Source of the DNA: an uncultured Chlorobiaceae bacterium
GTDB taxonomy: Bacteria; Bacteroidota; Chlorobiia; Chlorobiales; Chlorobiaceae
NCBI GenBank assembly: GCA_903866255.1
Contig: CAIPMW010000009.1
Span: 1 to 64,000 of the forward strand
Length of the DNA stretch: 64,000 bases
Direction: 5' to 3'
The notes below the pieces were generated by a model. The model was not told where the DNA came from, searched no databases, and worked only from the letters and a program-made list of their open reading frames with translations. The position numbers and the translations under genes were made by a program. Of this stretch, positions 47,897-57,453 are shown in pieces (position 1 is the first letter of the stretch; the number at the start of each line of letters is the position of its first letter).

Positions 47897-50782
47897 ATGA
47901 GCCGCATAAGCAGAATGCTCTTGCTTGCTCTTGCTTTTTTGGCAGTTGCTGGCGGTGGTATCGTTGGGGCAAAAGGTGAGAGCGCAAAGCCGTCAACTGT
48001 AATGTCTACCGTTGCCACAGCAACAGCAAATCAGGAAAAAGGGGATGGGCTTGTAATGCTGAAGGATAAGGTACTGACGGGTAAAGACAAAACCGATGGG
48101 AATTTTCAAATCTTTGGTATAAGTCTGGGTATTGGAGATGTTATTGCGTTGAGTGGTGTTTTCCTGACTATAATTGGTGGAATATGGGCTTTTTTCACAA
48201 AGATTTATCCAGGTTTGAAGGAAGCCAGAACAATAAAAAAGGACAGTAAAAAGTACGCAGAGCGCTACCAATCTGCCCTTGCAAACGAACTCGACAAAAG
48301 CAATCTTCCTGCATCAAATGCTCTCGACAGCTTTTCCGTAAAACTGACCGACACCTTTGTTTCGCTCAGCCTTTCAGAGACCTGGAAGAGCGACACAAAA
48401 TTTATCCCCGATAAAAGTCAGGAACAGCCAAGAGAAAACCACCATGTTCGCACACCTGAAGAGGTGATGGGGCTGGTTTTTAAAAATTTTCCACTGATGC
48501 TTGTCATTGGTGATCCGGGTTCAGGCAAAACAACCCTGCTGAGGCATTACGCCCTGACCTGTTTGAAAAAAGATGGTAACAAGCAAGATGGTTATAAAAT
48601 GCTTGGCTTCACTGAACCAGTGATGGTCTTTTATCTGGCGTTGCGTGAACTGAAAAAGAGCGCTTCCGGCTATGAATCCCTTGCTGACAACCTCTTTGCC
48701 TGGTCTGAAGATCATCAGCTCGGAATACCAAAAGCTCTCTTTTTCAACTGGTTGCACGATCAAAAAACATTGCTATTGCTCGACGGGCTGGATGAAATCA
48801 GCAATGTTGACGACAGAATCAAGGTGTGCAAGTGGATTGACCAGACCTCTGCAGGGCTTGCGAAGGCGCGTGTTGTTGTAACTTCACGCACAACCGGATA
48901 CCGGAAGGGAGACGGGATTGAGATTGTGACTGAGCATGTGCGGGCAGACATCATGGATTTTTCGCCGGATCAGCAGGCAACATTTTTAAAGAGATGGTTT
49001 AACGCTGCATTGTTGCGCGATCATCCTCTTGATGCCGCAACTCAGCAAGAGCAGATAAAGAGTGATGCCCTTAAAAAAGCAGAGACCATTATTGCCTATT
49101 TGGCCAAAGAGGAGAACAAAAGCTTGCAGGCATTGGCTGGCGTGCCTTTGCTGTTGCAGATCATGGCAACACTCTGGAAGGATCGCCAGTATCTGCCGGG
49201 AAGCCGTGTAAAGTTATACGATGCTGCCTTGGACTACATGCTCGATTATCGTGATCGGCAAAAAAATATTGAGCCATTGCTTCCCGCTGACAAAGCAAGG
49301 AGAGTGCTGACTCCTCTCTCTCTCTGGATGCAGGAGGAGTTGAAAAAGGATGAAGCCCCCAGAGCTGAAGTGCAGGCAAGAATGCAGGAGAAGTTGCAAA
49401 CCCAGCAAAACCCCCCTTCCGCAGAGGAGTTTTGCAAAAATCTTGTCGAACGGGCAGGCTTGCTGGTGGAGTATGGCGACACAGAGTATGTGTTTCGCCA
49501 TAAATCATTCCGCGAGTTTATGGCAGGCGTTCAGCTCAAGGAAGATCGTCCTTACGAGCGCATCAACGCGCTTGTCACCCATTTTGGTGACGACTGGTGG
49601 GAAGAGCCGCTTCGATTTTTTATCGGGCAGGTGGATGACAAAGTTTTTGATCTCTTCATGCAAAAGCTCTTTGATTCACCGGTCACGGAGACATTGACAC
49701 CAAAGAAACAGGAGCTGCTTGCAACTCTTATGAAAGAGGCCCTTGAAACAAAGAGCGATGCGTTACAGGCAAAGCTGCTCGACCCTAAAACCACTCCAAA
49801 TCGGCAGCGGTATCTTATGGATTGTCTGAAAACCATTGGCACAGGGAACCGGTCAGCAATTGATGTTGTCAGCAAATTTGCAGAATCGGGAATTACGGAC
49901 AATGTTGATATCCTGCGTTATGCCGCTGAAATTACTCGAAAGCAAGTGCAGCCAGAGATGTGTTCTGATGTTGAAAAGGGAGTTTCGGGGTTAGTCATGG
50001 ACAAGCTTGGTGCGCAATACATTTTGATCAGGGGAGGAACCTTCAGATTCTCCTTGACGAAGCAGAAGGAAACTGTTCCAGACCTCTACGTTGCAAAATA
50101 CACGGTGACCAATCAGCACTATCGTCGGTTTATCAGCTATCTGGAGTCTCAAGAGAAAGAGCTTGAACGTATTGTCTCTGTCAAAGAGTATAAAGAGCGC
50201 TTGAATGCAACGGCAAAAGGTATAAAGGGATTTGGCGACTTTCTTCAGCAAGGGAAAGAGTTGGCGACCATTTTTCGCTCAGGCTATGATAACAACAAAA
50301 AATTCAACAAGGATGAGCAGCCAGTTGCCTGGGTAAGCTGGTATGGTGCGAGTGCTTATTGCCTCTGGCTTTCATTGCTGGATGGTAATGCTCTTTATCG
50401 CTTGCCCACAGAAAAGGAGTGGGAGTATGCCGCAGGTGGAAGTGAGAGCAGAACCTATCCGTGGGGTGAGGAAGAGCCGTCACCGAACCGTGCCAATTTC
50501 AATGAAAATGAAGGGACTACCACACCCGCAGGTCGTTATCCTGATGGGGTGACACCGGAGGGGCTGTATGATATGGCTGGTAACGTGTGGGAGTGGATGG
50601 AAGATTTTTATGATAAAGATAAAGACTGGCGTTCAATACGGGGCGGCGCGTATTATGAGAGTAATGCTGATGCTCTGCGCTGCTCCTCCCGGTTCGTCGA
50701 CTTTCCGAGGTACCTCATCGACAGTGTGGGTTTTCGAGTGATTCGTTCCAGTCTTTTTCTTCCTGAAAATCTGATCCCCTGA
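47897..50782 (+). CDS. DGR target protein 1: membrane-associated NACHT NTPase with C-terminal FGE-sulfatase (C-type-lectin-like) variable domain
   Basis: N-terminal hydrophobic segment plus TM (IGDVIALSGVFLTIIGGIWAFF); Walker A VIGDPGSGKTTLLRHYAL; Walker B LLLLDGLDEIS; FGE motifs YRLPTEKEWEYAAGG, YDMAGNVWEWMEDFY, GFRVIRS; VR1 near 3' end. Confidence 0.93.
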   Translation: MSRISRMLLLALAFLAVAGGGIVGAKGESAKPSTVMSTVATATANQEKGDGLVMLKDKVLTGKDKTDGNFQIFGISLGIGDVIALSGVFLTIIGGIWAFFTKIYPGLKEARTIKKDSKKYAERYQSALANELDKSNLPASNALDSFSVKLTDTFVSLSLSETWKSDTKFIPDKSQEQPRENHHVRTPEEVMGLVFKNFPLMLVIGDPGSGKTTLLRHYALTCLKKDGNKQDGYKMLGFTEPVMVFYLALRELKKSASGYESLADNLFAWSEDHQLGIPKALFFNWLHDQKTLLLLDGLDEISNVDDRIKVCKWIDQTSAGLAKARVVVTSRTTGYRKGDGIEIVTEHVRADIMDFSPDQQATFLKRWFNAALLRDHPLDAATQQEQIKSDALKKAETIIAYLAKEENKSLQALAGVPLLLQIMATLWKDRQYLPGSRVKLYDAALDYMLDYRDRQKNIEPLLPADKARRVLTPLSLWMQEELKKDEAPRAEVQARMQEKLQTQQNPPSAEEFCKNLVERAGLLVEYGDTEYVFRHKSFREFMAGVQLKEDRPYERINALVTHFGDDWWEEPLRFFIGQVDDKVFDLFMQKLFDSPVTETLTPKKQELLATLMKEALETKSDALQAKLLDPKTTPNRQRYLMDCLKTIGTGNRSAIDVVSKFAESGITDNVDILRYAAEITRKQVQPEMCSDVEKGVSGLVMDKLGAQYILIRGGTFRFSLTKQKETVPDLYVAKYTVTNQHYRRFISYLESQEKELERIVSVKEYKERLNATAKGIKGFGDFLQQGKELATIFRSGYDNNKKFNKDEQPVAWVSWYGASAYCLWLSLLDGNALYRLPTEKEWEYAAGGSESRTYPWGEEEPSPNRANFNENEGTTTPAGRYPDGVTPEGLYDMAGNVWEWMEDFYDKDKDWRSIRGGAYYESNADALRCSSRFVDFPRYLIDSVGFRVIRSSLFLPENLIP
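50666..50750 (+). repeat. DGR variable repeat 1 (VR1)
   Basis: 85 nt aligned without gaps to TR 58009..58093; 13 differences, all at TR adenines. Confidence 0.95.
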
Positions 50783-50943
50783 TATCTGGAACTCTGAAAA
50801 AAGAAGCTCACTCGACAAAGAAGAACCAACATGGGGAGGCTAGAAATTTTTTTTGCGGGAAGGTTATGCAGGTCAGGCTGATACTCATAATCTGTTATTC
50901 TGTGCCGGTTGTCTCTTCTTCTTGTTGGCGTTTTCGGAAAAGA

Positions 50944-57300: not shown

Positions 57301-57453
57301 TATGATAAAGATGAAGATGTGCGTTCGTTACGGGGAGGTTGTTGGTTCGACGAAGCTGATGCTCTGCGCTGCTCCTCCCGGAGCAACTACCTTCCGGGGA
57401 GCGTCAGCAGCGATGTGGGTTTTCGAGTGATTCGTTCCAGTCCCTCTTCCTGA
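54361..57453 (+). CDS. DGR target protein 2: NACHT NTPase with N-terminal TIR/DUF4062-like domain and C-terminal FGE-sulfatase variable domain
   Basis: N-term ELLIFIGHSDDASAEVEAV...ARVAIFIFKERVGKVTWQELEQ; Walker A IIGDPGSGKTTLLKHYAL; Walker B LVLLDGLDEIS; FGE YRLPTEVEWEYAAAG, HDMAGNVWEWTDDFY, GFRVIRS; VR2 near 3' end. Confidence 0.93.
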   Translation: MKSNAQYVHPEFPPDELLIFIGHSDDASAEVEAVMSLRLEIEKMFREFLKVNLHRSRFRRWNFWAWGKDALTITGGQDAVVKHALDHARVAIFIFKERVGKVTWQELEQVRERSREQHLHILALFPEEKPYQGKFPNAQAKLQASRDWTALLERQEELTSDWTSTDSCSVTPCPTYQSIEELKNIVRDKVRVAMADILAVESPILRPTPLPQVNTASDFLRLYQATLMRQLGNITLTGSPALEHFATRLSDTFVSLSLSGSVRSETRFCKGVEQCEVMIDAQSRTPEKVMSIVFQQHPLLLIIGDPGSGKTTLLKHYALSCLNEQRYGDFGFSEPVNVFFLPLRELNIGDGSDISLADNLAAWAKKQFLAIDAAHFSDWLDQPSTLVLLDGLDEISDKEDRIAVCKWIDSTVGRFTKAKFVVTSRSTGYRKGDGIEIEADHLRADIMDFSPQRQAEFLHRWFKAAFCGEIPPAGDQEAWRTEQEQKATKKADAILAFLALEKNRGLRPLAGVPLLLQIMAMLWKEREYLPGSRLELYDAALNYLLDYRDRRRGLYPKLSAQDARRVLSPVSLIMQEELKKDEIDRLEMQQQMQGQLDTLYNSLPASDFCRNLVDRAGLLVEYGEKEYLFRHKSFREYMAGIQLLKNIHKQDSLNKLVSHFGDDWWTEVFRFFIGHVEDAELFDSFMQRLFDSPVTEELTQKQQDLLIALVEEAPQRKIDALRTKLLDPATTANRQRYLLECLKNIGKPEAIAALLEFKQSGLTKEQQLVKEVKYDKLGAEYIFIKGGTFPYSLTKKRETVKEMYVAKFTVTNQLFRRFISYLDAQEPELAERVPLKTYEERLQELGAGIKGFGDYLKEEPSLAKRFVSYTDTNKQFNKDDQPVAGVNWYAARAYCLWLSLLESDGALYRLPTEVEWEYAAAGEEGRPWPWSKEKGEPNKTLANYNNHEGAPTSAGRYPEGTTPEGLHDMAGNVWEWTDDFYDKDEDVRSLRGGCWFDEADALRCSSRSNYLPGSVSSDVGFRVIRSSPSS
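57355..57439 (+). repeat. DGR variable repeat 2 (VR2), possibly extending 5' to 57343
   Basis: 85 nt gap-free alignment to TR core; 11 differences, all at TR adenines. Confidence 0.96.

Follow-up and report, generated by a model that had tools for sequence, protein, structure and literature searches.

Whether a single template repeat (TR) of a diversity-generating retroelement (DGR) can keep more than one gene under diversification, including a gene that does not adjoin it, is the question raised by a 64,000-nucleotide stretch of DNA from an uncultured Chlorobiaceae bacterium (assembly GCA_903866255.1, contig CAIPMW010000009.1, positions 1 to 64,000; hereafter the window). The window is contig C9 of a draft genome (G000; 2.8 Mb, 117 contigs, 99% complete), and was compared with other Chlorobium genomes (labelled G with a number, their contigs C with a number). 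It encodes a DGR reverse transcriptase (RT; 58294-59388, + strand; RVT_1, 8.3e-18), the accessory protein Avd (57583-57936, +; bAvd PF22296, 4e-18) and, beside avd, the TR (58004-58096, +), with an AAC-rich block at 58036-58067. The RT open reading frame (ORF) is read to contain IGNLTSQ and YVDD, corresponding to the motifs [IVL]GxxxSQ and YxDD of DGR-group RTs, and is 34.6% identical to Brt of phage BPP-1. A first-pass annotation had proposed that this TR serves two target genes, one of them remote. With a probability of about 0.92, we conclude from the comparisons below that a single TR of this Chlorobium DGR homes mutagenically into at least five NACHT-FGE genes; one TR does serve both genes of the window, and the number of targets has to be corrected to five.

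Five targets of one template repeat

Both targets within the window are NACHT NTPases with a C-terminal FGE-sulfatase domain. Target 1 (47855-50782, +; ORF of 975 residues with a putative start; Pfam NACHT 1.3e-17, FGE-sulfatase 3.1e-41) carries the remote variable repeat (VR) VR1 at 50661-50753 (+), which comprises a mutable block at about 50693-50724 and the initiation of mutagenic homing (IMH) element at 50725-50753. Target 2 (54361-57453, +; 1030 residues; NACHT 6.4e-15, FGE-sulfatase 7.2e-41) adjoins the avd-TR-RT cassette and carries VR2 at 57350-57442 (+), with the mutable block at about 57382-57413 and IMH at 57414-57442. The TR core used for comparison consists of 22 A positions and 62 other positions. 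VR1 is changed at 13 of the 22 A-sites and VR2 at 11, and both are identical to TR at all 62 non-A positions, as had been claimed for VR1.

A search of the whole genome with TR revealed three further VRs, at C17:6178-6276, C45:39445-39545 and C45:44949-45037, likewise with 0 non-A differences; taken together, the five VRs of G000 differ from TR at 11-14 of the 22 A-sites and nowhere else. According to Pfam, all five targets are NACHT NTPases fused to a variable FGE domain, and the N-termini on C17 and C45 differ, consisting of a calcineurin-like phosphoesterase, an Mrr nuclease plus DUF4062, and DUF4062. No RT match was found on either C17 or C45. The target bodies within G000 are 56-88% identical, and their IMH elements are identical at 25/25 positions.

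Upstream of VR, the FGE coding sequences of targets 1 and 2 are 68% identical, and the identity between the two genes rises in a sharp step at the VR border; uniform identity over the FGE domain, which the first-pass annotation had named as the outcome contrary to its proposal, was not found. Of 117 codons outside VR that encode the same amino acid in both genes, 63 (54%) are identical, compared with all 16 A-free codons of the backbone, in agreement with the earlier claim of a diverged flank and a 100% identical VR backbone. The rough chance of 16/16 identical A-free codons is 5e-5 for this pair and falls to 5e-8 for other pairs, being only 0.04 for the two targets on C45.

Recent duplication or gene conversion between paralogs might also have made the VR backbones identical. 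The targets are indeed paralogs, and high identity returns 3' of VR1 and VR2 (98 nt, 92%), which lies beyond the reach of homing because TR does not contain that sequence. However, synonymous sites outside VR are highly diverged, the differences within VR are confined to TR adenines, and orthologues in other genomes carry the backbone of the resident TR in place of the ancestral one. The A-specific pattern and the discordance between backbone and body refute duplication or conversion for most pairs, and we regard it as very improbable. Equally hard to credit is purifying selection on the FGE protein as the cause of the constant backbone: although the backbone encodes conserved residues (ADALRCSSR, VGFRVIRSS), the 16/16 identity of A-free codons includes synonymous sites, as against 35-54% identity of same-amino-acid codons outside VR in 9 of 10 target pairs (82% in the C45 pair), and bases private to a TR recur in the VRs of each genome.

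The gene order was described correctly by the first-pass annotation. Between the end of VR1 and the start of TR, over 7.25 kb, lie a HipB-like HTH antitoxin (50909-51412, +; HTH_31, 1.4e-8; true start probably near 51069), a HipA-like kinase (51409-52716, +; HipA_C, 2.6e-44), an AAA_16 ATPase (53104-54297, +; 2e-11) and target 2. The gene convergent to RT (59443-60999, -) is one that we take to resemble AAA-ATPase-like/PD-(D/E)XK proteins. Elsewhere, G000 holds additional DGR-like RTs that come with TR/VR pairs of their own, the TR sequences of which are unrelated to that of the window: two RTs with at least four VRs in C43:1-20000 (L042), and one RT with two VRs in C67:40000-51517 (L043).

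Ancestry and homing across Chlorobium

In total, 62 VR-like sites and several TR lineages were gathered from Chlorobium genomes. A base private to the TR of G014 (TGTTGG) is present in 7/7 closely matching VRs, five on the TR contig and two on other contigs. The three VRs on C4 of G003 have 0 non-A mismatches to their own TR and 6 to the related TR of G028; G028 contains two TRs, and each of its VRs fits just one of them, including a VR on a third contig. Orthologous targets residing with different TR lineages have bodies of 91% (G006:C85 and G031:C184) and 90% (G006:C85 and G013:C221) identity, with IMH identical at only 18/25 and 19/25 positions, respectively; the pair G026:C271 and G034:C340 (bodies 97%, IMH 20/25) probably points in the same direction. 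The 3' flanks of orthologous pairs with differing backbones remain alike, such that the change is limited to the VR between, as is expected of homing, where VR is copied in from TR. To judge by these comparisons, VR backbones track the resident TR, not gene ancestry.

The end of TR reads GTTCCAATC, and the same place in every VR reads GTTCCAGTC. By this difference, IMH of the VRs and its TR counterpart (IMH*) can be distinguished in all lineages seen except the D-type, which shows GTC versus ATC after CGCCCT. The adenines inside IMH (CGAGTGATT) are unchanged in window-type VRs, although IMH differs among TR lineages (window positions 58068-58092, 50725-50749 and 57414-57438); IMH is therefore exchanged or co-evolving, without mutagenesis.

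The locus hardly differs between two of the genomes, G006 and G023. The body of the TR-adjacent target has 1 difference in 2000 bases and the downstream sequence none in 200, but its VR differs at 11 of the 22 A-sites and at none of the 62 other positions. A remote target, separated from TR in G023 by another target, has 5 differences in 3000 bases of its body, but its VR differs at 12 of the 22 A-sites and at 1 of the 62 other positions. Fisher tests gave 4e-8 for the adjacent and 6e-8 for the remote target. By this comparison, the adjacent and the remote target were both rewritten, independently, between the two strains, which provides in silico the independent variation of VRs that the first-pass annotation had suggested looking for by population sequencing. 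Its proposal of repeated homing into both genes is borne out by the A-specific changes (0/62 elsewhere), the genome-private TR bases in VRs, the backbone swaps in orthologues and the rewriting between G006 and G023. Its wording, retrohoming of the same cDNA, holds as far as homing from one TR is concerned, but each rewriting uses its own mutated cDNA.

At the level of sequence, these comparisons demonstrate that five VRs are related to TR in an A-specific manner, that VRs across the genus track the TR of their own genome, and that an adjacent and a remote target were rewritten independently in near-identical strains; we infer that RT and TR probably act in trans at the present day. In the mechanism that we propose, RT with Avd would copy the TR RNA into cDNA that is mutagenised at A, and this cDNA would replace the VR of any gene that ends in IMH and has the proper 3' context. 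The natural differences between G006 and G023 speak for such A-mutagenic reverse transcription and homing indirectly. The targets would be rewritten at their 3' tips, target 2 beside the cassette, target 1 at 7.25 kb, and three more on two other contigs. The target products may be variable sensors and, by analogy with the systems described in PMC10907252, might serve in defence against phages or in cell death.

Alternatively, the remote targets might be relics, written earlier by this or an earlier TR and no longer rewritten. Differences in triplet number between TR and some VRs fit this explanation, as do the VRs in G010, G018, G024 and G026, for which no close RT or TR was found, and the decayed targets that exist in G014. 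It is at odds with the 0/62 non-A changes in 5/5 targets of G000 and with the comparison of G006 and G023, in which a remote target proved to have been rewritten recently, and we consider it unlikely.

The VRs in G010, G018, G024 and G026 (L052, L056, L061-L064, L092, L094) have the window backbone with 0-1 non-A mismatches; the search of these genomes for a closely related RT or TR found none, and they represent assembly gaps or orphan targets. In G014, decayed targets (L044 9205, L045 15495, L059 6800; G014:C3) are remnants of FGE genes in which VR is lost or scrambled, whereas the IMH end and the CTG array described below persist. The RT match of G014 (G014:C3:112745-113794) contains one in-frame TAG, yet the G014 VRs agree closely with the G014 TR.

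Several points weigh against homing from one TR into five genes. The support for it is wholly comparative, and C17 and C45 are assigned to this genome by a draft assembly of 117 contigs. The window targets are without the stable hairpin known to aid homing of BPP-1 (7-10 bp GC-rich stem, 4-nt GRNA loop). One of the VRs on C45 (C45a) has one AAC triplet more than TR. Such extra AAC-derived triplets relative to the TR of the same genome (6 or 7 vs 5) occur at G000:C45:39515 (L041 7516), G006:C281:5655 (L048) and G006:C85:1893 (L051), G006 having VRs with one and with two extra triplets; the TR of G020 itself has 6. Some VRs may come from an earlier TR allele, or RT may slip on the AAC repeat, in which case slippage would vary loop length besides sequence.

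The CTG array 3' of the variable repeats

Shortly 3' of all five G000 VRs lies an array of five CTG units with a spacing of 8, 8, 7 and 8. After VR1, it spans 50763-50801 (+), with the stop codon (50780-50782) inside unit 3, and after VR2 57450-57488 (+), with the stop codon (57451-57453) inside unit 1. Each VR is followed by AGTC, a pyrimidine-rich linker of variable length, and then CTGAnnnnCTGnnnnnCTGnnnnCTGnnnnnCTG. The array is absent from the TR of the window and was never present after any of the Chlorobium TRs compared; a search of G000 with up to 3 mismatches yielded five copies at the five VRs and none elsewhere. The CTG columns are near-invariant compared with the variable bases between them (entropy 0.18 vs 0.76 bits, p 8e-5), the difference not being significant for columns after position 20 alone (p 0.13); both p-values are rough, as the sequences are related. 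The stop codon falls into the first unit in 40 targets and into the third in 19. Some targets have a degenerate or shortened array, e.g. G018:C52:3823 with three units. Array variants follow gene orthology, not TR, as exemplified by the CTGGCAAT version in G006:C85, G028:C35, G031:C184 and G013:C221.

The ends of VR1 and VR2, folded as DNA, did not surpass shuffled sequences (z -0.5 and +1.4) and gave no stable hairpin. A stem between GTTCCAG in IMH and CTGGAAC in array unit 4 was rejected, as it folds no better than shuffles and, by inspection, several targets break the pairing uncompensated (CTGAAAC, CTGGAAA); base pairing between the array and the transcript of avd-TR-RT was rejected for not exceeding that of shuffled sequences. 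A protein-coding role was discarded in view of the 8,8,7,8 spacing, which is not codon-phased, and of the stop codon at unit 1 or unit 3. The array is also no stop-in-three-frames cassette, since TGA is often missing from units 2 and 3, in which CTG is retained, and no by-product of homing, since TRs are without it. Homogenisation between co-targets is unlikely, given that, in different genomes and TR lineages, the variants are distributed according to orthology.

For comparison, the 55 nt after VR were scored for self-match in a sample of 47 DGR loci of other phyla, revealing an excess at 7 nt (t 8.2) and 8 nt (t 5.5). Values of z>2 were reached by 25/47 VR flanks (53%), as compared to 0/46 TR flanks (p 7e-10) and 16/200 flanks of other ORFs in the same loci (8%, p 2e-11). 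On inspection, the repeat unit differs by group (CTTTTACC, CCCTTGnn, CTGnnnn, GTTTTGA), and co-targets of one locus mostly have a common unit. Four targets are extended at the C-terminus, and their arrays come after the stop codon, at a distance of 70-100 nt from VR. The array region is pyrimidine-rich (62%), and a GC hairpin is found within 160 nt in 20/46 VR flanks, 9/46 TR flanks and 33/453 random windows; hairpins 3' of VRs often have GAA, GCA or GGCA loops, resembling the GRNA loop of BPP-1. BPP-1 itself has the hairpin and no array (z -2.7), and an array at z above 2 was found in 1 of 9 phage DGRs.

We tentatively consider, as a possibility somewhat on the doubtful side, that the CTG array, in combination with the GTTCCAGTC end of IMH, designates genes as targets of homing, whereby copies carrying it would stay tied to TR wherever moved and TR lineages could swap in the same targets. 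A shade more doubtful is the wider proposal that cellular DGRs of this RT group mark their targets with a portable homing address behind the stop codon or VR, made up of about 4-5 units that are each 7-8 nt long; the units may be CTGnnnn(n) in Chlorobium and CTTTTACn, CCCTTGnn or GTTTTGA in other phyla. If this were true, a gene end with the array would be captured by the resident TR, which would account both for targets at a distance and for the replacement of one TR lineage by another in orthologues.

The chance that the array is instead a transcript-end or mRNA element, e.g. a pyrimidine-rich termination site, is only a little short of even. Its start lies at the stop codon or close by, also where a C-terminal extension puts VR 70-100 nt away, and because its position is tied to the stop codon, a role in the 3' untranslated region or as a terminator is at least as likely as a homing address; its pyrimidine content and the GC hairpin that often follows (20/46 vs 9/46 for TR flanks) fit as well. 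A general terminator, however, would not be confined to DGR targets as the array is, with no occurrence elsewhere in G000 and z>2 in 8% of the flanks of other genes against 53% of VR flanks.

Relation to known systems

DGRs with one TR and dispersed targets are already known from Treponema, cyanobacteria and Thiohalocapsa, and the remote target, real as it is, is not unusual for a DGR. In Treponema denticola, seven VRs belong to one TR (PMC4891356), and cyanobacterial remote variable proteins involve one TR and RT with several VRs, many far from the cassette (PMC7517822), an arrangement that the Chlorobium DGR resembles. The target families differ from those of both, and a 3' array is not described for them in the parts of these two reports considered here. 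According to PMC4891356, only 38/56 mutated columns are at TR adenines in T. denticola, as opposed to no non-A difference in any of the five VRs here. In Thiohalocapsa PB-PSB1, the VRs of DGR 4 and 5 match the TR of DGR 2 perfectly at non-adenines, which was read as trans action, and Chlorobi were named among the hosts of such RTs (PMC10907252). As in PB-PSB1, the DGR targets are tied to NACHT/STAND conflict systems (PMC10907252); unlike there, all five targets fit one TR, and the replacement of TR lineages in orthologous targets can be traced across the genus. A survey of 2012, which covered about 11 kb around RT and so missed targets elsewhere, recorded DGRs with 2 and 4 VRs close to the RT in two members of the same bacterial family, Chlorobium phaeobacteroides DSM 266 and Pelodictyon phaeoclathratiforme BU-1 (PMC3521204).

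With the target site of BPP-1, the array shares its location just 3' of VR, its absence from TR and its overlap with the stop codon (PMC3240598). In BPP-1, however, VR is immediately followed by a GC-rich hairpin with a GRNA loop (PMC3240598), and a 7-8-nt array is absent, where the window targets have the array and no stable hairpin. Our literature search for repeats beside DGR targets found no description, and earlier surveys outside this search may mention such repeats.

As natural evidence for the sustained diversification of several scattered genes by one TR, the Chlorobium DGR is unusually clean: the tips of orthologues follow the resident TR and not their own ancestry, and in two strains an adjacent and a remote target were both rewritten. 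If the array were indeed a target mark, it would become testable on about 40 bp how a remote gene comes to be targeted by a DGR, a question posed for cyanobacteria in PMC7517822.

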